64,000 bases of DNA, taken from Variovorax sp. DXTD-1. Lineage in GTDB: Bacteria; Pseudomonadota; Gammaproteobacteria; Burkholderiales; Burkholderiaceae_C. Numbering within the stretch: the stretch's first letter is position 1; each line of letters begins with the position of its first letter. The stretch covers positions 1 through 64,000 of the forward strand of contig NZ_RWKH01000005.1 in the NCBI RefSeq assembly GCF_003984625.1, in the 5' to 3' direction. The notes under the pieces were generated by a model. That model was given only the letters and a program-made list of their open reading frames with translations. It did no database searches and was not told the origin of the DNA. The position numbers were made by a program, and so were the translations under genes. Of this stretch, positions 23,555 to 36,287 are shown one piece after another.

Positions 23555-24334
23555 TCAGCGCGGCCACTGCTGCCGCTGCCAGTAGCGGTACTGCCACTGC
23601 GTGGAAAAGCCCGCGCGCCGGTAGAGCGCGTGAGCCGGCATGTTGTGCGCATCGACCTGCAGGAACACGCGTTCGAAGCCGCGTTCGAGCGCGGCCTGCG
23701 CCAGCCCGGCCAGTACGCGCCCGGCCAGGCCCCGGCCACGGTGCGACTGCTCGGTGCGCATGCCGTGGACGCTGGCCCATCCATGACTGAAGGCCATGGC
23801 GCCCGCCGCGACAGTTCGGCGCCCCTCGCGCACGCTGGCATAGAGCGAGCCCTTGGCGCGGGAGAGCGCACGCACGCGGTGCGCCCCGTCTACCGGATCG
23901 AAGCCTTCGCCGAGGAACAGCGTGGCCCAGGCTTCGTCGGGTGCGGCATCGACGTCGGCCAGCGCCGCATCGGCCGACGCCACCTGCCGCATGCGCCTAG
24001 CGGAGCCGATCTGCACGCAGGTGGGCGAATCGCCCACGTAATGCCGCTGCTCCAGTTCGGCTCTCAGCGGGTCGAAGCATGCCGTGTCGGCCAGGCGGAA
24101 CGCGGGCACGAACTGGTGGCTGTCGTAGCGGGCTTCGATGCGGTCGAGCGTGCTGTCGCTCACGGCCCCGCGGTGCAGCGGAACGGCCGACCTCGCGCGC
24201 TTGACGGTGCCATCGTCGAACGGCAGCAGCCAGCCGTCGAGCTCTTCGATGACAAGGGGCGACACGGCGGCGACGGTGGCGCGCTCGATGGCTTCGATCT
24301 CGCCGCTCTCCACGAATCCGCGGGTGTCGTTCAT
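23555..24334 (-). CDS. GNAT-family N-acetyltransferase
   Basis: A 259-residue protein. The C-terminal half has the acetyl-CoA loop in RTEQSHRGRGLAGRVLAGL and the GNAT ending MPAHALYRRAGF. The N-terminal half (about 1-130) is a second, degenerate GNAT-like lobe (LVIEELDGWLLPFDDG). ATG 24334 overlaps the stop of the glycosyltransferase gene by four bases, so it is the last member of the exosortase operon. The acceptor is unknown; a sugar or peptide of the envelope is an inference from context. Confidence 0.8.
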   Translation of the reverse strand: MNDTRGFVESGEIEAIERATVAAVSPLVIEELDGWLLPFDDGTVKRARSAVPLHRGAVSDSTLDRIEARYDSHQFVPAFRLADTACFDPLRAELEQRHYVGDSPTCVQIGSARRMRQVASADAALADVDAAPDEAWATLFLGEGFDPVDGAHRVRALSRAKGSLYASVREGRRTVAAGAMAFSHGWASVHGMRTEQSHRGRGLAGRVLAGLAQAALERGFERVFLQVDAHNMPAHALYRRAGFSTQWQYRYWQRQQWPR

Positions 24335-25599
24335 GGCGCGGCCTCCGGCGCCGGGAATTTGGCGGCCGCCACGCTCTTGAGCAGCGCCTCGCGCTGGTTG
24401 CGGCTGATGCCGCGCACGCTCTCGGCCACCCACCTGGTGCGGTCGGGGTCGATGCGGCCGTCGCGCCGCCATTGTTCGAGCACCGCATGCGGCTTGTGCA
24501 GCATGGCCGCGAGCCACACGGCCTGCGCAGGCTCCAGGTTGCGTGCCGGGCGCTTGAAGTAGCGCCGCGCGGCAGCTTCGGCGCCGCACAGGTTGCCGCC
24601 CCAAGGGGCGTTATCGAGGTACAGCTGCAGGATGCGCGCCTTGCCGAGCGTCTGTTCCATTTCGACCGCATAGAGCAGTTCGCGCAGCTTGCGTTCCGCC
24701 GTGCGGTCGCTGCCCGTCACCAGCAGCTTGGCCAGCTGCTGCGTGAGCGTGCTGCCGCCGCGCTTGGTCTGGCCGTCTTTCTGGTTGTTGTCGAGCGACG
24801 CGACGATTTCCGCCAGGTCGTAGCCGGCATGGCTGAAAAAGCGCTGGTCTTCGGCCGCGATGACGGCGCGCGCCAGCCAGCTGTCGTTGGCCAGCTTCGA
24901 CGGGGCGCCGCAACCGGTGCGCGCGCCAAGCATGGCTTCGGTGCCCAGCCCTTCGACGGTGAACTGGCTGACGACGGGAGCCACCGCGAACGTGCCTTCG
25001 GGCAGCGCGACCTGCCCGCGAAGCGCCAGCGTGCCGCCGATGCGCGCGCGCTGCAGTTCGGGCAGGTTGGGCGCAAGCACCGCGTACCAGCGGGCAATGG
25101 GCGCGTCCTTGATGTCAGCGCTGAGCAGCAGGTTCTTGGGCGTGAGCCGGCCTTCCCACTGGCCGTGGATCACGGCCGACGCCTCGGCGCTGCGGGGCGT
25201 GGCCTCGAGAATGCCCGTCAGGGTGTTGCCGTCGCGCTTGACGGTGGCAAGCAGGCCTTCGACCCGGATCGGCTGCGTGCCGAGCGCCGGAACCTCGACC
25301 GTGCAGGGGGCGCAGCGCAATTCGAGCGCGCCGGCCTCGTACTTCCAGGCGAAATGCACGGTGCCGAAGCGGGTGTCGAGCGCGTGTCCGTCGAGGTGCG
25401 GCGCAAGCCACGGAGAAGTGGCCAGGCGCACCGCCGTGGGCATGCCGACTTCGAAACTCAGCGGACCGGCCTTGACCGTGCCGCGCCATTCGCCCGGTGC
25501 GGGCGCGAGGGCGAACTTCACTATCAGGAAGATAGCTATCGCTGCAGTGACCACAAGGGCCAACAGCCCGTAAATCGCAGATCTCAGGGTCTTGTTCAC
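24331..25599 (-). CDS. GT51 peptidoglycan glycosyltransferase with a long spacer domain
   Basis: A 422-residue membrane protein from GTG 25599. One transmembrane helix (about 8-30) is followed by a beta-rich domain of about 200 residues unlike that of MtgA. A GT51 module comes next: AAEDQRFFSHAG near 248-259 with the catalytic Glu 250, GGSTLTQQLAKLL, the RKLRELLYAVEME helix and LYLDNAPWGG. There is no transpeptidase domain. The enzyme should polymerise lipid II glycan outside the inner membrane. Placement within an exosortase operon, coupled to the GNAT gene, is unusual. Related proteins may be annotated as mtgA, but the spacer argues for a separate subfamily. Confidence 0.85.
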   Translation of the reverse strand: MNKTLRSAIYGLLALVVTAAIAIFLIVKFALAPAPGEWRGTVKAGPLSFEVGMPTAVRLATSPWLAPHLDGHALDTRFGTVHFAWKYEAGALELRCAPCTVEVPALGTQPIRVEGLLATVKRDGNTLTGILEATPRSAEASAVIHGQWEGRLTPKNLLLSADIKDAPIARWYAVLAPNLPELQRARIGGTLALRGQVALPEGTFAVAPVVSQFTVEGLGTEAMLGARTGCGAPSKLANDSWLARAVIAAEDQRFFSHAGYDLAEIVASLDNNQKDGQTKRGGSTLTQQLAKLLVTGSDRTAERKLRELLYAVEMEQTLGKARILQLYLDNAPWGGNLCGAEAAARRYFKRPARNLEPAQAVWLAAMLHKPHAVLEQWRRDGRIDPDRTRWVAESVRGISRNQREALLKSVAAAKFPAPEAAP

Positions 25600-25606
25600 A
25601 CAACTC

Positions 25607-26176
25607 TCACAAGGGTCTCGCCACCGTGACGGCTTGCCACGGACCGGTCGACTGCCCGCTGGCGGCCGCCCAGTACCAAGCTGAAGTGTCGGTGAAAGCC
25701 GTGCCTTCGGCATCGACGATGCGCTCGCAAACGCGGAACTTTTGCGCTCCGTGCATTTGCGCAACAAAACAGCGCCACAAGCGCTCCTGCGCATCGCGTT
25801 CAAGGCGCGCCTGCTCGATGCGATAGCCAAGCGCGCGGTAGCAATCGGCGGCCGGGTGAAGCATGCGTGTGGGCGTTTTCACCGCGCGCATCACGATCAT
25901 CTGCCTGCCATCGGTCATGCGGCCGATGGCGCCCGGAAAGCGGTCCGCAAAGCGCTGCTCGACGTCGCCCAGCGCCATCGGCCGCAGCGGAACGCCGTCC
26001 CATTCGCGCGGCCATTCATGCGATGCCGCGGCCGCCAGGTGTTCTTGCGGCTCGCGCAGCGCGGCGGCGGTAGACCACAGCAGGCACAGCAGCATCGCGA
26101 GTGCAAAGCTCGTCTTGTGGCCGATGCGGTTGATGAAGTGATTAGCGAAAAAGCTTTCAAAGAACCGTGTCGACAT
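25607..26176 (-). CDS. EpsI-like exosortase-associated protein
   Basis: A 189-residue protein with one transmembrane helix near residues 22-40 (TSFALAMLLCLLWSTAAAL) and a periplasmic domain. It resembles EpsI/exosortase-associated proteins in having a single Cys in HPAADCYRALGYRI, a middle hydrophobic strand pair and a WYWAAASG end. Such proteins sit beside exosortases and are thought to help substrate processing. It overlaps the exosortase stop by 20 bases and ends seven bases before the glycosyltransferase start. Confidence 0.75.
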   Translation of the reverse strand: MSTRFFESFFANHFINRIGHKTSFALAMLLCLLWSTAAALREPQEHLAAAASHEWPREWDGVPLRPMALGDVEQRFADRFPGAIGRMTDGRQMIVMRAVKTPTRMLHPAADCYRALGYRIEQARLERDAQERLWRCFVAQMHGAQKFRVCERIVDAEGTAFTDTSAWYWAAASGQSTGPWQAVTVARPL

Positions 26177-27086
26177 GGCGGCCTCCCTGCGTGGTGATCA
26201 TTCCAGGCATCGGCTGGTCGGCAAGTCCGGCTGAAGTGCGTTCCGGCACCATCAGACGGGCGATGCCGCCGCACACGGCCGCCAGCACCGCCAGGCCGAG
26301 CATGTTGTGCGCCCATGGTGCCAGCGGCTGCCCCGCGCCTTCGAAGGCAATCAGCACGCTGTTGCGCAGGATGTTGCCGCCCAGCACCAACAGGCCGACC
26401 ATCGGCAGCCGGCGCAAAAAGCCGCGGTCGCTCTGCCGTGCCCAGAGTGCCACCGCGCAGGCCGTGAAATAGCCGAGCCACACCATCTGCACGCCGGAGC
26501 ACGGCGCATCGACGATGACCAGCCGCCCGTCGACCACCAGGCTGCTGCCCTCGCGCGCCACGCTGAAGCCCGGGGCCAGCAGCCAGCGGCTCGCTTCGGC
26601 CGTGACCACGCGCAGCGGATAGCCGGCATAGAACTGCAGCGACGACAAAAGCGGCAAGGCCAGCACCGCCAGCCCTACGACCGGCAGCGCGGCCACGCGG
26701 CGCGGAAGAAAGGCCAGCAGCCCGCACGCCAGTGCCAGCACCGCCATCAGGCTTGCCGCGAGCGGCGGCAAGGCGGGCAGGGCGCCCACGCCGGTACGCA
26801 GCAGCGTGGCCAGCAAGGTGCCGGCGCCCGCCAGGGCCAGCCAGCCCAGCCGCGGTGCCGCGCGCAGCTCGCGCCGACGTTGCCAAGCCAGCGCCGCCAA
26901 GGCGGCCAATGCGAGCAGGCCGAGCGGATCGTCGGAGCCGTCGCGCATGCGCCGGACCATCCAGGCCCAGGTCGGCGCGAGCGCCGCGAATTGCAGCGCC
27001 AGCCAGAAGACGGCCGGTGCGCGGTCGATGTGAATGCCTCCATCCACGATGAGCGGATGGGGGTGAGCAAGTGCGGCCAATGACAT
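26157..27086 (-). CDS. xrt: Exosortase (XrtQ-like), transpeptidase for PEP-CTERM proteins
   Basis: A 309-residue polytopic membrane protein with about eight helices. The catalytic triad typical of exosortases is present: Cys 196 in DAPCSGVQMVW, Arg 241 in GGNILRNSVLI and His 260 in WAHNMLGL. Exosortases cleave PEP-CTERM tails and pass the protein to the cell surface. The gene lies 24 bases after the VIT/vWA gene, whose product ends in a PEP-CTERM-like tail, so that protein is the likely dedicated substrate. Assignment to the XrtQ subtype is from this context and was not checked against models. Confidence 0.85.
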   Translation of the reverse strand: MSLAALAHPHPLIVDGGIHIDRAPAVFWLALQFAALAPTWAWMVRRMRDGSDDPLGLLALAALAALAWQRRRELRAAPRLGWLALAGAGTLLATLLRTGVGALPALPPLAASLMAVLALACGLLAFLPRRVAALPVVGLAVLALPLLSSLQFYAGYPLRVVTAEASRWLLAPGFSVAREGSSLVVDGRLVIVDAPCSGVQMVWLGYFTACAVALWARQSDRGFLRRLPMVGLLVLGGNILRNSVLIAFEGAGQPLAPWAHNMLGLAVLAAVCGGIARLMVPERTSAGLADQPMPGMITTQGGRHVDTVL

Positions 27087-27110
27087 TTCTTTTTTCCCTT
27101 TCCGCCGCGC

Positions 27111-29192
27111 TCAGGCCGTGAAGCGGCGCGGATCGTGGCGGCGCGCGCGGCGGCGCAGCATGGCAAGCATCGACAGCACCACGGCAATGGCGCCCAGGGT
27201 TTCGGGTTCGGGCGTGCTCGGCACTTCGGCACCGAGTGCCAGCTCGCTCACGCCCTGGGGCAGGGGCAGCGGCTGGTTCACGTCCACGCTGTTCTGCGGC
27301 GCAACGTTGCGCACCACCTTGTCGACCGCGATGAAGCTGGTGTACTGCGTCAGCAGGCTGTACTTCAGGCCAAGCTCGGTGATGCGCTCCTTGAAGGCGG
27401 CGCCGCCCTCGAGCGTTTCCTGGTCGCTCAGGCTCTGGATGCGGTGGCGCGCCCACAGCGTGCGCAGCGCAGCCGTGTCCTGGCGCATCTGCGGGTCGAT
27501 GCGCAGTTCCTGGCGGTACGGGCCGTTGGCGCCCTGGCCTTCGATGATGACGCGTCCCCGGGCCTTGCCTTCGGCATCGGCGCGCCACTTGCCGAACACG
27601 ATCACCGGGCGCTCGCCCAGCACGTCGGGCAGCGCTTGCGGCTCCACGTCGTACACGTCCAGGCCGCCGAAAGTGACCTTCACGTTGGTGAGCACCGGCG
27701 ACTCCACCATGCGGCGGAAGCGCGCGGCCTGCTCCGGCGCCTGGATCGGGTCGGTGATGATGAAGGGCTCGCCCATGCCGGCGCGTGCAATGCCTTCCAT
27801 CAGGCTGCGGTTCACCGACGAACCGATGCCGAATGCGAACACGTTGGCCTTCGAAAGGTTCTTGCGCACCAGCTCGAAGGCCTCGCGCTCCACGGTCACG
27901 TAGCCGTCCGTCACCAGCACCACGGTGCGCGACACGTTCTCTTCCTTCGGTTCGGCATACACACGCTTGAGTGCCGGAATCAGTTCGGTGCTTCCACTGC
28001 CGCTGTAGTTCTGGATGGTGGCCAGCGCCTGTTCGATGTTGGCGCGCGTGGCCGGCACCGATTGGGGCGAGAGCATCTTGTTGCTGCCCGAGAACAGCAG
28101 CACGTTGAAGGTGTCGCTCGGGCGCAGTCCGCCGATCAGCCGTTCGAGCACGGTCTTGGCGGTGTCCAGCGGAAAGCCGTCCATCGAACCCGAGATGTCG
28201 ACCACGAAGATGTAGTCGCGTGGCGAAATGGCGCTGGCAGCCACCGCCTTCGGAGGCTCGACCATTGCAAGGAAGAAGTTTTCCGCGCTTCCATCGGCGT
28301 TCTGCCCCTGGCCCTTGTAGAGCATCAGGCCCGATTCGATCTTCTCGCCCGCGAGCCGGTAGTCGAGCACGAAGTCGCGGTTGTCCGCAGGGCGGCCATC
28401 GGCCGCAAGTGCCACGTCGGCGTGCCGGTCTTCATCGCTCTTCTTCACCTCGATGGTGTGCGACGAGGAGCGCACTTCCTTCAGGCCCATCGGCGTGTCG
28501 ATGCTGGCCTTGAGCATGAAGCGGGTGCTGGGCGCCACGCCCGCGCGCAGCGTGGGCTGCGCCACCCATTGGGCCTGGGCGTTCTCGGACTGCGGGCTGT
28601 TGTAGCGCGGGCCCACCACGGTAGGAAACACGAAGGCGTAGTTGCCCGACTGCGGCACCAGCAGTTCGGTGTAGCGCAGTTCCACCTTCACATCGTCGCC
28701 CGGCAGGATGTTGGCAACGTTCATCTGGAACACGTTGGGCAGGTGCTGCTCGAGCAGCGCGGCGGTCTTGCCTTCCTTCTTGGCGGTGTCGTATTCGATC
28801 TGCGCCTGCTGCTTCTCGCGGATCTGCGCGGTGATGAGCCGATCGGCCAGGCGCACATTGAGGCCGCTCACCGCGGCCTTGGTCGAGCCGGGGAAAACAT
28901 ACTTCGCCTCGATAGCGCGCTGGCCTTCGTTGCGGTAGGTCTGCGTCACGGTCACGTCGGCAATGACGCCCGAGATCTTCACCGACACCTCGGTGCCTTT
29001 CAGCGGCAGCCGGTCGACCGAGGGGTCGTCGCTCTTCACGAAGAAATACGGGCTCTCGGTCTTCAGCCGCGGGCCGGGCGCTTCCTGCGCATGCACCGGG
29101 TGCACGCTGAGCACGACGAAGCCCGCGGCGGCCAGGCTCACGGTGGCGAGCCAGAGCCAGCGGCCGGGGCGGGTGGAGATATGGGCGTCCAT
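27111..29192 (-). CDS. VIT and vWA domain surface protein with PEP-CTERM-like sorting tail
   Basis: A 693-residue exported protein. ATG 29192 starts a signal peptide ending VHAQ. Residues 55-185 form a VIT (inter-alpha-trypsin inhibitor) domain, with TYRNEGQRAIEAKYVFPGS as landmark. A vWA domain follows with a complete MIDAS motif, Asp 332-x-Ser 334-x-Ser 336, so metal-dependent adhesion is possible. The last 33 residues start with PEP at 661, then a hydrophobic helix and an Arg-rich end, the layout of a PEP-CTERM tail. It is the first gene of the exosortase operon and divergent from creD. The role may be adhesion or cell-surface assembly. Confidence 0.88.
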   Translation of the reverse strand: MDAHISTRPGRWLWLATVSLAAAGFVVLSVHPVHAQEAPGPRLKTESPYFFVKSDDPSVDRLPLKGTEVSVKISGVIADVTVTQTYRNEGQRAIEAKYVFPGSTKAAVSGLNVRLADRLITAQIREKQQAQIEYDTAKKEGKTAALLEQHLPNVFQMNVANILPGDDVKVELRYTELLVPQSGNYAFVFPTVVGPRYNSPQSENAQAQWVAQPTLRAGVAPSTRFMLKASIDTPMGLKEVRSSSHTIEVKKSDEDRHADVALAADGRPADNRDFVLDYRLAGEKIESGLMLYKGQGQNADGSAENFFLAMVEPPKAVAASAISPRDYIFVVDISGSMDGFPLDTAKTVLERLIGGLRPSDTFNVLLFSGSNKMLSPQSVPATRANIEQALATIQNYSGSGSTELIPALKRVYAEPKEENVSRTVVLVTDGYVTVEREAFELVRKNLSKANVFAFGIGSSVNRSLMEGIARAGMGEPFIITDPIQAPEQAARFRRMVESPVLTNVKVTFGGLDVYDVEPQALPDVLGERPVIVFGKWRADAEGKARGRVIIEGQGANGPYRQELRIDPQMRQDTAALRTLWARHRIQSLSDQETLEGGAAFKERITELGLKYSLLTQYTSFIAVDKVVRNVAPQNSVDVNQPLPLPQGVSELALGAEVPSTPEPETLGAIAVVLSMLAMLRRRARRHDPRRFTA

Positions 29193-29301
29193 GGCGGTGT
29201 GGAGTGGTGTCCGTGCGAACTTGCACAGCCGCAACTTTCGACGCCACGCGAGAAGGAAATTGGAAGGCTGCTTGAAGTGCGGCAACCGTTTGCCGCCTTG
29301 T

Positions 29302-29317
29302 GTGAAGCCTGTGTGAA
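29302..29317 (-). promoter_or_regulatory. Perfect CreB tag (TTCAC-N6-TTCAC)
   Basis: On the minus strand the sequence reads TTCAC-ACAGGC-TTCAC, an exact match to the CreB direct-repeat consensus of enteric bacteria. It points towards the VIT/vWA-exosortase operon and lies 82 bases upstream of creD on the other side. Both genes could be controlled from it. Confidence 0.75.
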
Positions 29318-29335
29318 GTCGGCCGGCGGGCGCGC

Positions 29336-29351
29336 TTCACACAGCCTTCGG
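29336..29351 (+). promoter_or_regulatory. Degenerate CreB tag facing creD
   Basis: TTCAC-ACAGCC-TTCGG has the same spacing, with a weaker second half (two mismatches). It points towards creD, opposite to the perfect tag, and the spacer differs by one base from that tag (ACAGCC versus ACAGGC). Confidence 0.5.
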
Positions 29352-29398
29352 GTTGCACGGCGAGCATCGCCGCTTCGTTATCGAAGAGGAAAAAAAAC

Positions 29399-30889
29399 AT
29401 GTTCCAGTTGTTCAAGGCCTTGCAGAGTTCCATGCTGGTCAAGGTGGCCGGCCTGCTATTGCTCACGCTCCTGCTGTGCATTCCGCTCGCTGAAGTCGAT
29501 TCGATCAACCGCGAGCGCGGCCGCAGCCAGCGCGAAGCAGCCGAGGAGCTTGCCGCCACCTATGCAAGCGCGCAGACCATGGTGGGCCCGGTACTGCTGG
29601 TGCCTTATGTGGAGCGCTGGATGGAGCCGCTGCGCGATGCGAAAGGCAAGGTGATCGGCCAGGAGGCGCGCAGCAAGGAAATGGCCCACGCGGTGTTTCC
29701 CGACAAGCTGCACATCGAAGGCTCGATGACGCCGCAAGAGCGCTATCGCGGCATCTTCAAGATTCCGTTCTACACACTCAACGCCACGCTCGGCGGCGGC
29801 TTCGCGGCCTTCGACCCCAAATCGGTGGCGCACAGCGAAGCCGATTCGCGCATCGAGTTCAAGGCACCTTTCGTCGTGTTCTACGTGAGCGACCTGCGCG
29901 GGCTCGACGGTTCGCCTTCCATCGCAATGAACGGCGAGGGCCTGCGCTTCAGGCAGCGCGTGCCCGGCCTGGCGGACAACAGCTGGCTGGCCGACGGGGT
30001 CCACGCACCGCTCACCGGCGCCGCGCTTGCCGCATGGGAATCGAAGGCGCCGCTGCCCTTCGAGATGAAGCTCAGCCTCGTCGGGCAAGACACGCTCTCG
30101 ATGGTGCCGATTGCCGAAGAGACCACCGCCCACCTGAGCTCACCCTGGGCGCATCCAAGCTTCGGTGGCCGCTTTCTCGCCGCGAAGCGCGAAGTGACCC
30201 CGCAAGGCTTCGATGCGCACTGGCGCGTGTCGTCACTGGTGACTTCGGCGCGCGAGCAGGTGCGCGCCGGACTGTCGGACCGCGAAGATCGCAGCGCTGC
30301 TGCCACCGCAGCTGCCGCGGCCGCCGCGGCGACAGCCGGCCATGCACCGCGCAACCTCGGCCCGCTGCAGACCTTCGATGTGTCGCTCGCACAGCCCATC
30401 AACGTGTATTCGATGAGCACGCGCGCCGGCAAATACGGCGCCCTCTTCATCGGCCTGGTGGTCATGGCCGCCTTCATGTTCGAGCTGTTCCGCAGGCAGC
30501 GCATGCACCCGGTGCAATACGGGCTGGTGGGCCTTTCGATTGCGCTGTTCTTCCTGCTGCTCTTGGCACTGTCCGAGAAGCTGGCGTTCTGGCTGGCCTA
30601 TGCGAGCGCGGCCGGCGCGAGCGTGCTGCTGCTCGGCATTTATTTCAGCGCGGTGTTGCAAAGCTGGAAACGCGGGGCGGGCTTCGGGGCCTATGTCGCG
30701 GTACTCTATGGCGCGCTCTACGGCCTGCTGGCATCGGAAAGCAATGCCCTTCTGCTCGGCGCCCTGCTGACATTCGGCATGCTGACGGTGCTGATGCTCG
30801 CCACGCGCAAGGTCGACTGGTATGCGTTGTCCGTCGGGAACCCCCGAGCACCCGAGCCAGTCGTACCTGAAGTGGCTCCGTCCGTGTAA
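29399..30889 (+). CDS. creD: Cell envelope integrity protein CreD
   Basis: A 496-residue inner-membrane protein. An N-terminal helix (SSMLVKVAGLLLLTLLLCIPL) is followed by a large periplasmic domain and about five C-terminal helices. The PLLYVPYVER-like start of the domain and the LFKALQSS beginning are CreD features. CreD is the main target of the CreBC two-component system, linked to beta-lactam and cell-wall stress responses. creBC lies 3-5 kb downstream, and CreB tags precede this gene. GAGG lies upstream of ATG 29399. An Ala-rich run (about 300-315) is an oddity. The PBP1A gene follows after 39 bases, so co-transcription is likely. Confidence 0.9.
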   Translation: MFQLFKALQSSMLVKVAGLLLLTLLLCIPLAEVDSINRERGRSQREAAEELAATYASAQTMVGPVLLVPYVERWMEPLRDAKGKVIGQEARSKEMAHAVFPDKLHIEGSMTPQERYRGIFKIPFYTLNATLGGGFAAFDPKSVAHSEADSRIEFKAPFVVFYVSDLRGLDGSPSIAMNGEGLRFRQRVPGLADNSWLADGVHAPLTGAALAAWESKAPLPFEMKLSLVGQDTLSMVPIAEETTAHLSSPWAHPSFGGRFLAAKREVTPQGFDAHWRVSSLVTSAREQVRAGLSDREDRSAAATAAAAAAAATAGHAPRNLGPLQTFDVSLAQPINVYSMSTRAGKYGALFIGLVVMAAFMFELFRRQRMHPVQYGLVGLSIALFFLLLLALSEKLAFWLAYASAAGASVLLLGIYFSAVLQSWKRGAGFGAYVAVLYGALYGLLASESNALLLGALLTFGMLTVLMLATRKVDWYALSVGNPRAPEPVVPEVAPSV

Positions 30890-30928: not shown

Positions 30929-33316
30929 ATGGACGATTCCTCTCCTTCCACCGAATCGGCGCGCTCCGAACGCTCGATGCGGCTGCGGCGCATTGCGCGG
31001 TGGAGCGCCATCGTGGGCGGTTCGGCCGTGCTGGTTGTGCTGGTGGCCGCCGGCGTGGCGGTGGCCGTCATCTCGCCCCGTCTGCCCGACATCTCGGAGC
31101 TTGCCGACTACAGGCCCAAGCTGCCTTTGCGCGTGTATTCGGTCGAAGGCACGCTCATCGGCGAATTCGGCGAGGAGCGCCGCACGCTCACGCCCTTTGC
31201 CAACATTCCCAAGGTGATGAAGGACGCGGTGCTGGCCGTGGAAGACGCGCGCTTCTACGACCACGGCGGTGTCGACTACAAGGGCTTTGCGCGCGCGGCC
31301 GTGGCCAGCCTGAAGGGTGGCCGCAAGCAGGGCGCCTCGACCATCACCATGCAGGTGGCGCGCAATGTGTACCTCAGCTCGGAGCGCACGCTGAGCCGCA
31401 AGACCTACGAGATCTTGCTGGCCCTGCGGCTCGAGCAGCAGCTCACCAAGGACCAGATCCTGGAGATCTACCTGAACCAGATCTACCTGGGCAATCGCGC
31501 CTATGGCTTTGCTGCGGCCTCCGAGGCGTACTTCGGCAAGCCGCTGCAGAACATCACCACCGCCGAGGCCGCCATGCTGGCCGGCCTGCCGAAGGCGCCC
31601 GGCGCCAACAACCCGGTGGCCAACCCGCGGCGCGCCCGCGCGAGGCAGCTCTATGTGATCGACCGCATGCAGGAGACCGGCTTCATCACCGCCGAGCAGG
31701 CGGCCGAAGCCAAGAAGGAAGAACTGCATCTACGCGATGCCGCCGATCCGAACCGGCTGCATGCCGAATACGTGGCCGAAACCGTGCGCCAGATGATGTA
31801 CGCGCAGTACGGCGACAGCATCTACACCAGCGGCATGAAGGTCTACACATCGCTGGTTGCTGCCGATCAGGCGGCGGCCTACAAGTCGCTGCGCAAGGGC
31901 ATCATGGACTACGAGCGGCGCCAGGCCTACCGCGGGCCCGAGCGCTTCATCGACCTGCCGGAGGACGCCAAGGAAGCCGACGAGGCGGTGGACGACGCGC
32001 TGGCCGAACACCCCGACAACGGCGACGTGATGGCGGCGGTGGTGCTGGAGGCCGGCCCCAAGGAAATCAAGGCCGTGCGCGCCAACGGCGAAACCGTGCA
32101 GATCACCGGCGAAGGCCTGCGGCCTGCGCAATCGGGCCTTGCGGCCAAGGCGCCACCCAACATCAAGATCCGCCGCGGCGCGGTGATCCGCGTGGCGAAG
32201 ACGCCCAAGAACACCTGGGAAATCACGCAGCTGCCCGAGGTCGAAGGTGCCTTCATCGCCATGGACCCGCGCACCGGTGCCATCAAGTCGCTGGTGGGCG
32301 GCTTCGATTTCGGCAAGAACAAGTTCAACCACGTCACGCAGGCCTGGCGCCAGCCGGGCTCCAGCTTCAAGCCGTTCATCTATTCGGCCGCGCTCGAGAA
32401 AGGCTTCGCGCCGGCGACTATCGTGAACGACGCGCCGCTGTTCTTCGAGCCGAGCACTCCGGGCGGCCAGCCTTGGGAGCCGAAGAATTTCGACGGCGGC
32501 TTCGAAGGGCCGATGCCGCTGCGCACCGCGTTGATGAAGTCGAAGAACCTGGTGACGATCAGGCTGCTGCAATCCATCGGCGCGCCGTACGCACAGGACT
32601 GGATCACGAAGTTCGGCTTCGACAAGGACAAGCATCCCGCCTACCTGCCGATGGCGCTCGGTGCGGGCTCGGTCACGCCGATGCAGATGGCCACCGCCTA
32701 CTCGGTGTTTGCCAACGGTGGCTACCGCGTCAATCCGTATCTGGTCACGCGCGTGACCGACCTGCGGGACAAGGTGCTGCTCGAAACCGAACCGCCGGTG
32801 CTCGACGAAACCCGCCGCGCCATTCCCGAGCGCAATGCCTTCATCATGGATTCGCTGCTGCAAAGCGTGGTGAAGGGCGGCACCGCCGCGCGTGCCTCCC
32901 AGGCGCTCAAGCGCGACGACCTGTTCGGCAAGACCGGCACCACCAACGATTCGTTCGACACCTGGTTCGCGGGCTTCCAGCCCACGACGGTGGGCATTGC
33001 ATGGATCGGCTACGACACGCCGCGCCAGCTCGGCGTGCGCGGCGAAACCGGCGGCAGCCTGAGCCTGCCGATCTGGATCGGCTACATGCAGACGGCGCTC
33101 AAGGGCGTGCCGGTCAGCAAGATTCCGGAGCCGGCGGGTGTCGTCAATATCGACGGCGAGTGGTACTTCGACGACTTCACGCCGGGACACAGCGTGGCGA
33201 GCCTGGGCCTGGAGAACACCGAGGCGCCGCCGCCGGCGGAAGAACTCTCGGGCGTGCCGCTGGGCCCGCCGCCGCAGCCCGAGGAGCGCAACCGCATCCT
33301 CGAGTTCTTCCGGTAG
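30929..33316 (+). CDS. mrcA: Penicillin-binding protein 1A (bifunctional class A)
   Basis: A 795-residue class A PBP that polymerises and cross-links peptidoglycan. After one transmembrane helix (about 30-50) comes the GT51 domain with VEDARFYDHGG near residue 104 and ASTITMQVARN. The transpeptidase domain has SSFK with nucleophile Ser 478, SKN, and KTGT at 668-671. An inserted OB-like domain of about 100 residues lies between them, as in other mrcA products. It follows creD closely, joining the Cre response to a major cell-wall synthase. The GT51 enzyme in the exosortase operon makes a second glycosyltransferase within 6 kb. Confidence 0.95.
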   Translation: MDDSSPSTESARSERSMRLRRIARWSAIVGGSAVLVVLVAAGVAVAVISPRLPDISELADYRPKLPLRVYSVEGTLIGEFGEERRTLTPFANIPKVMKDAVLAVEDARFYDHGGVDYKGFARAAVASLKGGRKQGASTITMQVARNVYLSSERTLSRKTYEILLALRLEQQLTKDQILEIYLNQIYLGNRAYGFAAASEAYFGKPLQNITTAEAAMLAGLPKAPGANNPVANPRRARARQLYVIDRMQETGFITAEQAAEAKKEELHLRDAADPNRLHAEYVAETVRQMMYAQYGDSIYTSGMKVYTSLVAADQAAAYKSLRKGIMDYERRQAYRGPERFIDLPEDAKEADEAVDDALAEHPDNGDVMAAVVLEAGPKEIKAVRANGETVQITGEGLRPAQSGLAAKAPPNIKIRRGAVIRVAKTPKNTWEITQLPEVEGAFIAMDPRTGAIKSLVGGFDFGKNKFNHVTQAWRQPGSSFKPFIYSAALEKGFAPATIVNDAPLFFEPSTPGGQPWEPKNFDGGFEGPMPLRTALMKSKNLVTIRLLQSIGAPYAQDWITKFGFDKDKHPAYLPMALGAGSVTPMQMATAYSVFANGGYRVNPYLVTRVTDLRDKVLLETEPPVLDETRRAIPERNAFIMDSLLQSVVKGGTAARASQALKRDDLFGKTGTTNDSFDTWFAGFQPTTVGIAWIGYDTPRQLGVRGETGGSLSLPIWIGYMQTALKGVPVSKIPEPAGVVNIDGEWYFDDFTPGHSVASLGLENTEAPPPAEELSGVPLGPPPQPEERNRILEFFR

Positions 33317-34065: not shown

Positions 34066-35508
34066 TCAGTGATGTGACGACAGAAGCGGCAGCGTGAGCG
34101 TGGCCACCGCGCCGCCGCGGGCCGCATTGCCGAGTTCGATGCGTCCGCGGTGCAGCGCGGCAATCTCTTTCACGAAGGCCAGCCCGAGCCCGGTGCTCTT
34201 TTTCTGGCTGTGCGGCCGCGCCAGCGAATAGAACTTCTGAAAGACTTTTTCCTGTGCGTAGTCCGGAATGCCCGGGCCGCGGTCGCGCACCGTCACGCGC
34301 GCAAGCTTCGAGGTGGTCTCCAGGGTGAGCAGCACCTCGCTGCCCTCCGGTGAAAAATCGAGGGCGTTGTCGAGCAGGTTGCTGATGGCGCGCCGCAGCA
34401 GGAACGGATCGCCCTCGGTGCCGGCCTCGGTGCGGATGTTCACGCGCACGCCGATGTTGCGCTTGGCCGCCGCGGGCTGCGCGCTGATGGCGATGTCCTC
34501 GATCAGCGAAGCCAGCGCCACGGGCTCCGTGCGGTCGAGCCCGTGGCGGGTTTCCAGCGCGGTGAGCTCCATCATGCGGTCGACGATTTCCTGGATGCGC
34601 TGCGTTTCGCGCTCGATGTTCTTCAGGAAGCGCTCGCGCTCCGCATGCGGCATCGAGGGTTCCTGCAGCAGCTCGGCCGCGCCGCGAATCGCCGAGAGCG
34701 GGCTCTTCACTTCGTGCGTGAAGGTCTGCACGTAGTCGGCCACGTAGTTGCGGCCGGTGAGCGCATCGCGCATTTCGCTGAAGCCGGTGCGCACCGCATC
34801 GACCGCGCGCCGCGCCATGCGCGAAAGGCTCAAGGTGCGCTGCGCGCGCACCCAGCGCCAGTAGTCCGAAATCAGCCCGAAGGGCCGCACCAGCCAGACC
34901 GAGACGATCACCGCAAGCAGCAGCAGCGCCAGGCCCGAGCCCACGCCCACCCACAGGGTGCGGGCGCGCGCGTCTTCCACGAACTGGCCGAAGCTCTGCA
35001 CCGGCTTGCCGACACTGACCATGCCGACGATTTCGTTGTTCCAGCGGATCGGCGCGCCCACGTACATCACCGAGGTGCGCGGGTCGCCGTCGACATCGCG
35101 CGAGGTGCGCGCGCCGTACAGCCCGGCGAGCGTGCGGTTCACGTCGCTCCACTGCGAATAGTCGGCGCCCAGGTGCCTGCCGAGCGAATCGAACATCACG
35201 CGGCCGTTGCGGTCGGTCACGTACACGCGCAGTTCGACCCGGTTCTTGTGCAGGTTGTAGATCTGGGCCGAGAACTCGCGTGCGTACACGGAGCGGAACA
35301 GCGGCTCGAGCCGCGCGGTGTTGATGGCGCCCGCGATCACGTCCTGCTCGACCAGGCTGGCAAGGAGTTGCGAGGTTTCGACCAGCGACTCTTCGGCCGA
35401 TTCGCGGTAGCGCGGATCGATGTCGGACACCACGCGGTAGAGCAGGAATGCGATGCCTGCCGTGTAGATCAGCAGGATGCCGATAAAAATCCGCGTGCGG
35501 CGGCTCAC
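34066..35508 (-). CDS. creC: Sensor histidine kinase CreC
   Basis: A 480-residue inner-membrane kinase: an N-terminal helix, a periplasmic sensor region of about 150 residues, a second helix near 185, an H-box with FTHEVKSPLSAIRG (His near residue 266), and a HATPase domain with NLLDNALDFS, DRGPGIPDYAQ and STGLGLAFVK. CreC responds to carbon source and, in several bacteria, to PBP inhibition. ATG 35508 overlaps the creB stop by four bases, so creB and creC are co-transcribed. Together with creD, mrcA and the CreB tags they form a compact regulon. Confidence 0.92.
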   Translation of the reverse strand: MSRRTRIFIGILLIYTAGIAFLLYRVVSDIDPRYRESAEESLVETSQLLASLVEQDVIAGAINTARLEPLFRSVYAREFSAQIYNLHKNRVELRVYVTDRNGRVMFDSLGRHLGADYSQWSDVNRTLAGLYGARTSRDVDGDPRTSVMYVGAPIRWNNEIVGMVSVGKPVQSFGQFVEDARARTLWVGVGSGLALLLLAVIVSVWLVRPFGLISDYWRWVRAQRTLSLSRMARRAVDAVRTGFSEMRDALTGRNYVADYVQTFTHEVKSPLSAIRGAAELLQEPSMPHAERERFLKNIERETQRIQEIVDRMMELTALETRHGLDRTEPVALASLIEDIAISAQPAAAKRNIGVRVNIRTEAGTEGDPFLLRRAISNLLDNALDFSPEGSEVLLTLETTSKLARVTVRDRGPGIPDYAQEKVFQKFYSLARPHSQKKSTGLGLAFVKEIAALHRGRIELGNAARGGAVATLTLPLLSSHH

Positions 35509-36287
35509 GGCGTCTGGGGCAATTCTTCGTTCAACGCGTAGCCGGTGCCGCGCAGCGTGCGGATCGGCTCCACATCGGGCGCCACGGCCTTGAGCTTGGC
35601 GCGCAACGTTTTCACGTGCGCGTCGACCGTGCGGTCGAAGCTGTCGCTCGCATCGTCCCAGACCAGCTGCAGCAACTCGTCGCGCGTGAAAACACGCCCC
35701 GGCCGCTGCACCAGGAGCCGCAGCAGGCCGTATTCGTAGCGCGAGAGCTCGAGCAACCGCCCGTAGTAGCGGATTTGCATGCGCTCGTTGTCCAGCGCAA
35801 ACGGCGTTGCGGGTGGCTGGGAGCTCGCAGGAGCCGCCGCACCCGAATTTTGAGGGGGACCCCCGTTGTTTGCTGCCGCAGGGCCTCCAGGGGCCCCGCG
35901 CGCGCTGCGCCGCAGGATGGTGCGAACCCGCGCCACCAGTTCACGCGGTGAAAAGGGCTTGGCAATGTAGTCGTCGGCACCGAGTTCCAGCCCGACCACA
36001 CGGTCGATTTCATCGCTTCTCGCGGTGAGAAACAGCATCGGCACTTCGGCGCCGCCCTGCGACTGGTTCAGCGCGCGCAGGCGCTTGAAGAGCTCGAATC
36101 CGTTGAGGTCGGGCAAGCCAACGTCCAGTATGGCCAGCGCCGGCGGCTCCTGTGCGAACTGCGCGATGGCTTCCTCGGCCGTTGCGCACCACACCGGCGT
36201 GAAGCCATCGCTCTTCAGGACGTATTGCAGCGTGTCGGCAATGCCCGATTCGTCTTCGGCGATCAGGATCCGGGGTTTGAAACTCAT
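35505..36287 (-). CDS. creB: Response regulator CreB
   Basis: A 260-residue OmpR-type regulator. The receiver domain has the acidic pair ED near residue 11, phospho-acceptor Asp 55 in LAILDVGLPD, and a Lys in DDYIAKPF. The winged-helix domain ends with TLRGTGYALNEEL. Between them lies a Pro/Gly/Ala/Asn-rich linker of about 35 residues (about 130-165), longer than in E. coli CreB, which may change dimer spacing on the TTCAC direct repeats. It is the first gene of creBC and begins next to the candidate origin region. Confidence 0.92.
   Translation of the reverse strand: MSFKPRILIAEDESGIADTLQYVLKSDGFTPVWCATAEEAIAQFAQEPPALAILDVGLPDLNGFELFKRLRALNQSQGGAEVPMLFLTARSDEIDRVVGLELGADDYIAKPFSPRELVARVRTILRRSARGAPGGPAAANNGGPPQNSGAAAPASSQPPATPFALDNERMQIRYYGRLLELSRYEYGLLRLLVQRPGRVFTRDELLQLVWDDASDSFDRTVDAHVKTLRAKLKAVAPDVEPIRTLRGTGYALNEELPQTP

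Follow-up and report, generated by a model that had tools for sequence, protein, structure and literature searches.

Conserved pairing of exosortase Q with a GT51 peptidoglycan glycosyltransferase behind a CreB box in Variovorax and related bacteria

The window analysed here is a stretch of 64,000 nucleotides from Variovorax sp. DXTD-1 (contig NZ_RWKH01000005.1, positions 1-64,000; assembly GCF_003984625.1). It carries a minus-strand operon that encodes, in this order, a VIT/vWA protein, an exosortase, an EpsI-like protein, a glycosyltransferase of family GT51 and a GNAT acetyltransferase. Comparison of the locus across relatives identifies the first four genes as a conserved block. Judged from the genomes surveyed, the pairing of this exosortase with the GT51 enzyme is real, largely specific and not a product of chance. 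The block is preceded by an exact copy of the cre/blr tag TTCACN6TTCAC, here called the CreB box, a tag whose function two sources set out (PMC4689548, PMC3660660). We give a little better than an even chance to the view that the genes form a CreBC-controlled cell-wall module, in which the box drives VIT/vWA - xrtQ - epsI - GT51 and the processed protein goes to new peptidoglycan. The gene set of this soil bacterium and its relatives is probably turned on by a known cell-wall-stress sensor. The five genes had been described in an earlier note on this DNA, with gaps or overlaps of 24, -20, 7 and -4 bases; all five are present, and the coordinates in Table 1 reproduce those distances.

By its score on the NCBI model NF012182 (Table 1), the exosortase is exosortase Q (XrtQ), an already named family that the earlier note had missed. 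It also matches PF09721 (2.1e-25). The Cys196/Arg241/His260 triad claimed in that note is borne out by the aligned homologues, where it is near-invariant (C196 in 68/68, R241 in 68/69 and H260 in 68/68). A sequence search for an exosortase structure found none. The EpsI-like partner matches the XrtT model in its C-terminal part only, and a comparison with Pfam matched no family. In 12 of 68 loci the XrtQ and EpsI matches fall within a single open frame (sequencing errors uncorrected), and the partner appears to be fused to XrtQ in some relatives. A distant exosortase with an EpsI-like gene was seen at L112 (G032) and L113 (G077), which have neither a VIT target nor a GT51 match.

In order to follow the block in other genomes, we sampled 399 genomes of the family and 399 of the order, and compared the surroundings of 68 loci. 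XrtQ was above the cut-off in 61 family and five order genomes; at E 1e-10 it was found in 64 family genomes, in 27 of 141 genera. The 61 above-cut-off family loci, the window included, all have VIT and EpsI genes, and 59 have a GT51 gene directly downstream on the same strand, some of the VIT, EpsI and GT51 matches at contig ends being partial. The two loci lacking it are L089 and L070, where the contig ends at L070. Among the five order loci, GT51 is present in L110 and L111, both with XrtQ below the cut-off, and was not found in L109, L112 and L113; among three fragment loci it is present in L115 and was not found in L114 and L116. From a scan of named genomes that gave 250 contigs with relatives, the best 80 were kept; this set overlaps the family sample and is not independent of it, L181 and G603 being one example of contigs with equal length. 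GT51 is present in 71 and EpsI in all 75 of its loci whose downstream sequence reaches 4 kb or more, and VIT in all 75 with 3.5 kb or more upstream. Four named loci, L218, L223, L228 and L231, have no GT51 in sequence that runs on. Whether the GT51 gene stays with the exosortase in relatives, which the earlier note had made a test of its proposal, is thus answered in favour of the pairing.

The N-terminal domain of the GT51 enzyme follows XrtQ between genomes as well. A profile of this domain (A2) was run on 299 family genomes, 49 of which count as XrtQ genomes by a match at E 1e-10. It matched in 49 genomes, namely 46 of the 49 with XrtQ and 3 of the 250 others (Fisher p 9e-47, shared descent uncorrected). 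The XrtQ genomes lacking it are G432, and G424 and G537, in both of which the XrtQ match is a fragment. The VIT target is distributed likewise (46/49 versus 2/250, also uncorrected for shared descent). A control set of 20 loci, drawn from the 35 strongest matches of other exosortases in XrtQ genomes, comprised 388,519 bases; none of three GT51 queries matched there, and an exact CreB box was absent. The domain without XrtQ was found in G518 and G653, as a true GT51 gene adjoining creC, and in G666, as a weak match that contains stops. The two lone genes of XrtQ type lie at L147 8962-10591 (+) in G518 and at L148 859-1960 (-) in G653. Each adjoins creC and a LemA-like gene, with an exact CreB box upstream in G518 and two boxes with at most one mismatch in G653.

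The VIT/vWA protein is the predicted main substrate of XrtQ. It runs from a signal-peptide-like start to a C-terminal VPSTPEP-TM-RRR tail, that is, a PEP motif, a hydrophobic helix and a basic end, a layout that the tails of homologues share. The likely start is the ATG at 29192, ahead of the signal-peptide-like stretch, rather than the frame's first TTG at 29285. The tail scores 17.7 bits on TIGR02595 (cut-off 16) and 17.5 bits on PF07589 (cut-off 20.7). Residues D363, S365, S367 and D460 are kept in 63/63 aligned homologues and T433 in 63/64; we take these to be metal-site residues.

The draft genome of DXTD-1 (5.25 Mb in 92 contigs) encodes one exosortase and six GT51 domains. One PEP-CTERM tail in it is above the TIGR02595 cut-off; the next by PF07589 reaches 13.1 bits, and no further convincing PEP-CTERM protein was seen in the genome. 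The earlier note had named many such proteins elsewhere in the genome as a finding that would count against its proposal, and this check did not refute it. The earlier note had proposed a single-substrate exosortase, and in relatives this holds as a rule, with exceptions. Among 57 XrtQ genomes, XrtQ is the sole exosortase match in 25; these and five others were searched for PEP-CTERM tails at E 0.5, and some matches are below the cut-off. Seventeen of the 25 single-exosortase genomes have one match, two have none (G443, G577) and six have more than one. The only match is the VIT protein in 16 of the 17, and another protein in G490. Counting all tail matches, the VIT protein is among them in 21 of the 25; both matches of G474 lie elsewhere. 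The five genomes with additional exosortases gave 2 to 26 matches. XrtQ therefore usually appears to have one recognisable substrate, and weak tails may be missed. The tails in G490 (C12:164200-164268, minus strand, 26.6 bits) and G474 (C1:3214199-3214273, minus strand, 18.5 bits) are not at the VIT gene; XrtQ is the only exosortase match of both genomes, and these proteins are possible second XrtQ substrates.

Genes creB, creC and creD, overlooked in the earlier note together with the CreB box, are all in the window. The box reads TTCACACAGGCTTCAC. With the upstream region defined from the aligned VIT start, the box is exact in 56 of 64 loci and has at most one mismatch in 60 of 64; defined from the open frame, the counts are 49 and 53 of 64. 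Averaged over the loci, a 650-base region holds about 0.04 exact tags, true sites included. Two of the four loci missing the box in the aligned-start region (L070, L098) have no upstream sequence, and in the other two (L090, L111) the VIT alignments start late. An exact box is present in 74 of 75 loci of the named set (best 80 of 250 kept), and its loci with at least 9 kb upstream (n=72) hold creC in 69, creB in 48 and creD in 51. CreC was found in 86 of 212 family genomes, in 37 of 38 with XrtQ versus 49 of 174 others (p 3e-16, shared descent uncorrected); the lone miss, G496, is 76% complete. In G264 (L094) the box is kept with creC about 46 kb from XrtQ. It is conservation ahead of the VIT gene that argues for the box, and not its frequency, because exact boxes number three in the whole DXTD-1 genome versus four for a reversed control pattern. 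The operon appears to belong to the CreBC envelope-stress regulon, in which CreB would control it in vivo. The other two exact boxes of the genome are at L152 (C77:170475), with a six-base spacer the same as that of the VIT box, and at L150 (C12:98656). An imperfect box with two mismatches, TTCACACAGCCTTCGG, lies at 29336-29351 (+), directed towards creD and back to back with the VIT box.

The GT51 protein consists of a membrane helix, a beta-rich N-terminal domain of about 200 amino acids, and a GT51 transglycosylase domain that was found both above the cut-off and by fold. Residues E250 (EDQRF) and E307 (RKLRE) are invariant in 44 aligned GT51 sequences, were aligned to the A. aeolicus enzyme, and are presumably the two catalytic glutamates. 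Cysteines 96, 99, 230 and 338 are conserved. Searches with the N-terminal domain by Pfam, PDB sequences, Foldseek and VIA-align gave no clear match, also for a possible AsmA-like fold that had been guessed from the appearance of the sequence. By its intact catalytic residues, beta-rich domain and four cysteines, the enzyme is a distinct GT51 subfamily.

Relatives of the VIT/vWA protein bear on where the processed protein may go. We screened 300 genomes of the same order for the marine-type sortase and found it above the cut-off in 12, none of which has an XrtQ match. Eleven sortase loci of 4.6-19.5 kb each were read. Ten hold a VIT/vWA relative (29-32% identical), whose tail contains LPxT in nine and LPQGAT in one. 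In G413 (L254, 4465-7143, plus strand) an OmpA domain (E 1.5e-17) replaces the PEP-CTERM tail of a 54% identical paralogue, and no CreB box within one mismatch was found across 11 kb of this locus. A second VIT/vWA protein in G516 (L255, 3826-6276, plus strand; 61% identical) has a membrane helix and RRSR at its end, with no PEP motif. One VIT/vWA protein body thus seems to meet different tails. LPxT and OmpA tails are peptidoglycan-directed kinds. Given these tails, the GT51 gene of the operon and the CreBC link, peptidoglycan is the simplest common destination and, in our view, the likeliest one for the VIT/vWA protein; covalent attachment may be hypothesised.

For the CreBC-controlled cell-wall module we propose the following course. 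CreC would sense a signal, which is peptidoglycan stress in some of the relatives studied, and CreB would bind the box and turn on the four genes. The VIT/vWA protein would be exported and retained by its C-terminal helix. XrtQ and the EpsI-like partner would then cut at the VPSTPEP tail, releasing or transferring the protein, while the GT51 enzyme would build glycan strands from lipid II there. The processed protein would end in or on the newly made peptidoglycan. Such a course suggests that exosortases can act on the cell wall. In a bolder version, which we regard as doubtful, XrtQ would act as a transpeptidase and link the VIT/vWA protein to a precursor of peptidoglycan, and GT51, through its cysteine-bearing domain, would take the protein-loaded lipid II and polymerise it into strands. 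If this version were true, it would amount to sortase-like wall anchoring in Gram-negative bacteria by an unrelated enzyme, called up by the CreBC stress response.

Several observations weigh against the cell-wall module. XrtQ, EpsI and VIT occur without GT51, though the sequence continues, in L089, L109, L218, L223, L228 and L231, so XrtQ does not strictly depend on GT51; taken with the lone GT51 genes of G518 and G653, this indicates that neither strictly needs the other. GT51 was found in none of the 11 sortase loci with related VIT proteins (within their 4.6-19.5 kb). In the region searched, L090 and L111 lack a CreB box even with three mismatches allowed; the late start of their alignments is as noted. 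The co-occurrence p-values ignore shared descent. In E. coli, CreBC answers metabolic signals (PMC4689548), and cell-wall stress is not the sole possible trigger. Finally, that CreB binds the box and controls the genes in vivo, that the tail is cleaved, that the GT51 enzyme is active and that the protein goes to peptidoglycan are steps that we infer.

The lone genes of G518 and G653 are also compatible with a merely shared regulon. GT51 would then be a cell-wall enzyme under CreBC that shares a promoter with the XrtQ system, and XrtQ would release or lipid-anchor the VIT/vWA protein for some unrelated function at the surface. We consider this possible, at well below an even chance. The CreB boxes ahead of the two lone genes fit it, as do the XrtQ loci without GT51. 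What exosortases attach their substrates to is itself unsettled: for the substrates of other exosortases, a 2025 paper offers anchoring in the outer membrane, anchoring to polysaccharide, or release (PMC12188702). A shared regulon accounts poorly for the rarity of the N-terminal domain in genomes without XrtQ, where one of the three matches is weak and broken, though CreC is common there (49/174), and for the four-base overlap of EpsI and GT51 in 33 of 62 loci.

Alternatively, GT51 could remodel peptidoglycan locally and let the VIT/vWA protein pass outward, to end in the outer membrane or outside. The conserved block is compatible with this, and the same 2025 paper reports other exosortase work that puts PEP-CTERM proteins outside the cell (PMC12188702). 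The OmpA-tailed paralogue of G413 points to the wall instead. Moreover, GT51 enzymes build glycan strands and do not open them, and we hold this alternative to be unlikely. Mere hitch-hiking of genes that travel together by descent or transfer, with no functional link, would suit the patchy distribution (27/141 genera) and the counts uncorrected for relatedness, and is the least probable of all since 25 sampled genera retain the block while its flanks differ between loci, and the box is kept in L094 despite the distance to creC.

Table 1 Features of the exosortase Q locus and its surroundings in the window
Feature	Position	Strand	Evidence
VIT/vWA surface protein	27111..29192	-	PF08487 2.8e-34, PF13768 2.4e-18, TIGR02595 17.7 bits
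Exosortase Q (XrtQ)	26157..27086	-	NF012182 406.9 bits, cut-off 270
EpsI-like partner	25607..26176	-	C-terminal part of XrtT model, E 1.5e-9
GT51 peptidoglycan glycosyltransferase, 422 aa	24331..25599, GTG start at 25599	-	PF00912 8.4e-45
GNAT acetyltransferase	23555..24334, ATG ~24334	-	PF00583 5.3e-13, PF24553 3.3e-19
Exact CreB box TTCACN6TTCAC	29302..29317	-	110 bases 5' of VIT ATG
creD, divergent from VIT gene	29399..30889	+	NF008712 467 bits, cut-off 275
PBP1A-family class A penicillin-binding protein, 3' of creD	30929..33316	+	TIGR02074 603.7 bits, cut-off 508.75
creC sensor kinase	34066..35508	-	NF008312 595.3 bits, cut-off 356
creB response regulator	35505..36287	-	NF008296 305.9 bits, cut-off 273

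The fifth gene of the operon does not share the conservation of the other four. The earlier note had counted the GNAT enzyme as a member of the system; full matches to it were found in three of the 60 loci L049-L108, and it is present in 31 of 75 named loci (best 80 of 250 kept). As it is confined to some Variovorax-type loci, we ruled it out as a part of the system, and by this distribution it is a Variovorax-type add-on. The flanks, comprising CreD, PBP1A, pirin, GNAT and LemA genes, vary between loci. A role in anti-phage defence was considered for the operon and dropped, the four core proteins having no PADLOC match.

The earlier note had thought the pairing of an exosortase with a dedicated glycosyltransferase to be new. 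The exosortase family itself already has its name, and we found no use of XrtQ or exosortase Q as an exosortase name in the literature searched. Neither the exosortase-GT51 pairing nor an exosortase-CreBC link was found in that literature, which took in few subscription journals, and the pairing may be in print. One enzyme with usually one substrate, its own peptidoglycan synthase and the box of a known stress response make a small, testable case. The CreBC regulon would gain a defined output, and GT51 a new subfamily.

The operon can be set beside several known systems. With the CreBC/BlrAB regulon, known from creD and the Aeromonas beta-lactamase genes, it shares CreB, CreC, CreD and the TTCACN6TTCAC box; it differs by its exosortase, a combination with CreBC absent from the literature searched. 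The monofunctional peptidoglycan transglycosylase MtgA, like the XrtQ-linked GT51, has a membrane helix and a GT51 domain. The XrtQ-linked enzyme adds the N-terminal domain of about 200 residues and the four conserved cysteines, and its TIGR02070 score of 141.7 is below the cut-off of 182.65. The nearest other GT51 of the genome by blast is frame L010 (42% over 148 residues), which we take to be MtgA-like.

Exosortase N has a VIT-domain target in Bacteroidetes, and the two systems share an exosortase paired with a VIT-domain protein, whereas XrtQ scores weakly on the XrtN model (35.3 bits, cut-off 200). The dedicated (marine) sortase system of proteobacteria (TIGR03784/03785/03787/03788) shares with the operon a homologous VIT/vWA target, two-component regulators nearby and one enzyme per target. 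Its sortase is unrelated to exosortases, its targets have LPxT-type tails, and GT51 is missing from the 11 loci read. The XrtQ target scores 420.7 on TIGR03788, below the cut-off of 551.65, and the sortase model TIGR03784 has no match at E 1e-15 in the DXTD-1 genome. Likeness to exosortase Q and the PEP-CTERM/exosortase systems is seen in the NF012182 score and in the PEP motif, helix and basic tail of the substrate. What sets the XrtQ operon apart from these is a substrate that is usually the only recognisable one, in place of many, together with its own GT51 enzyme and a CreB box.

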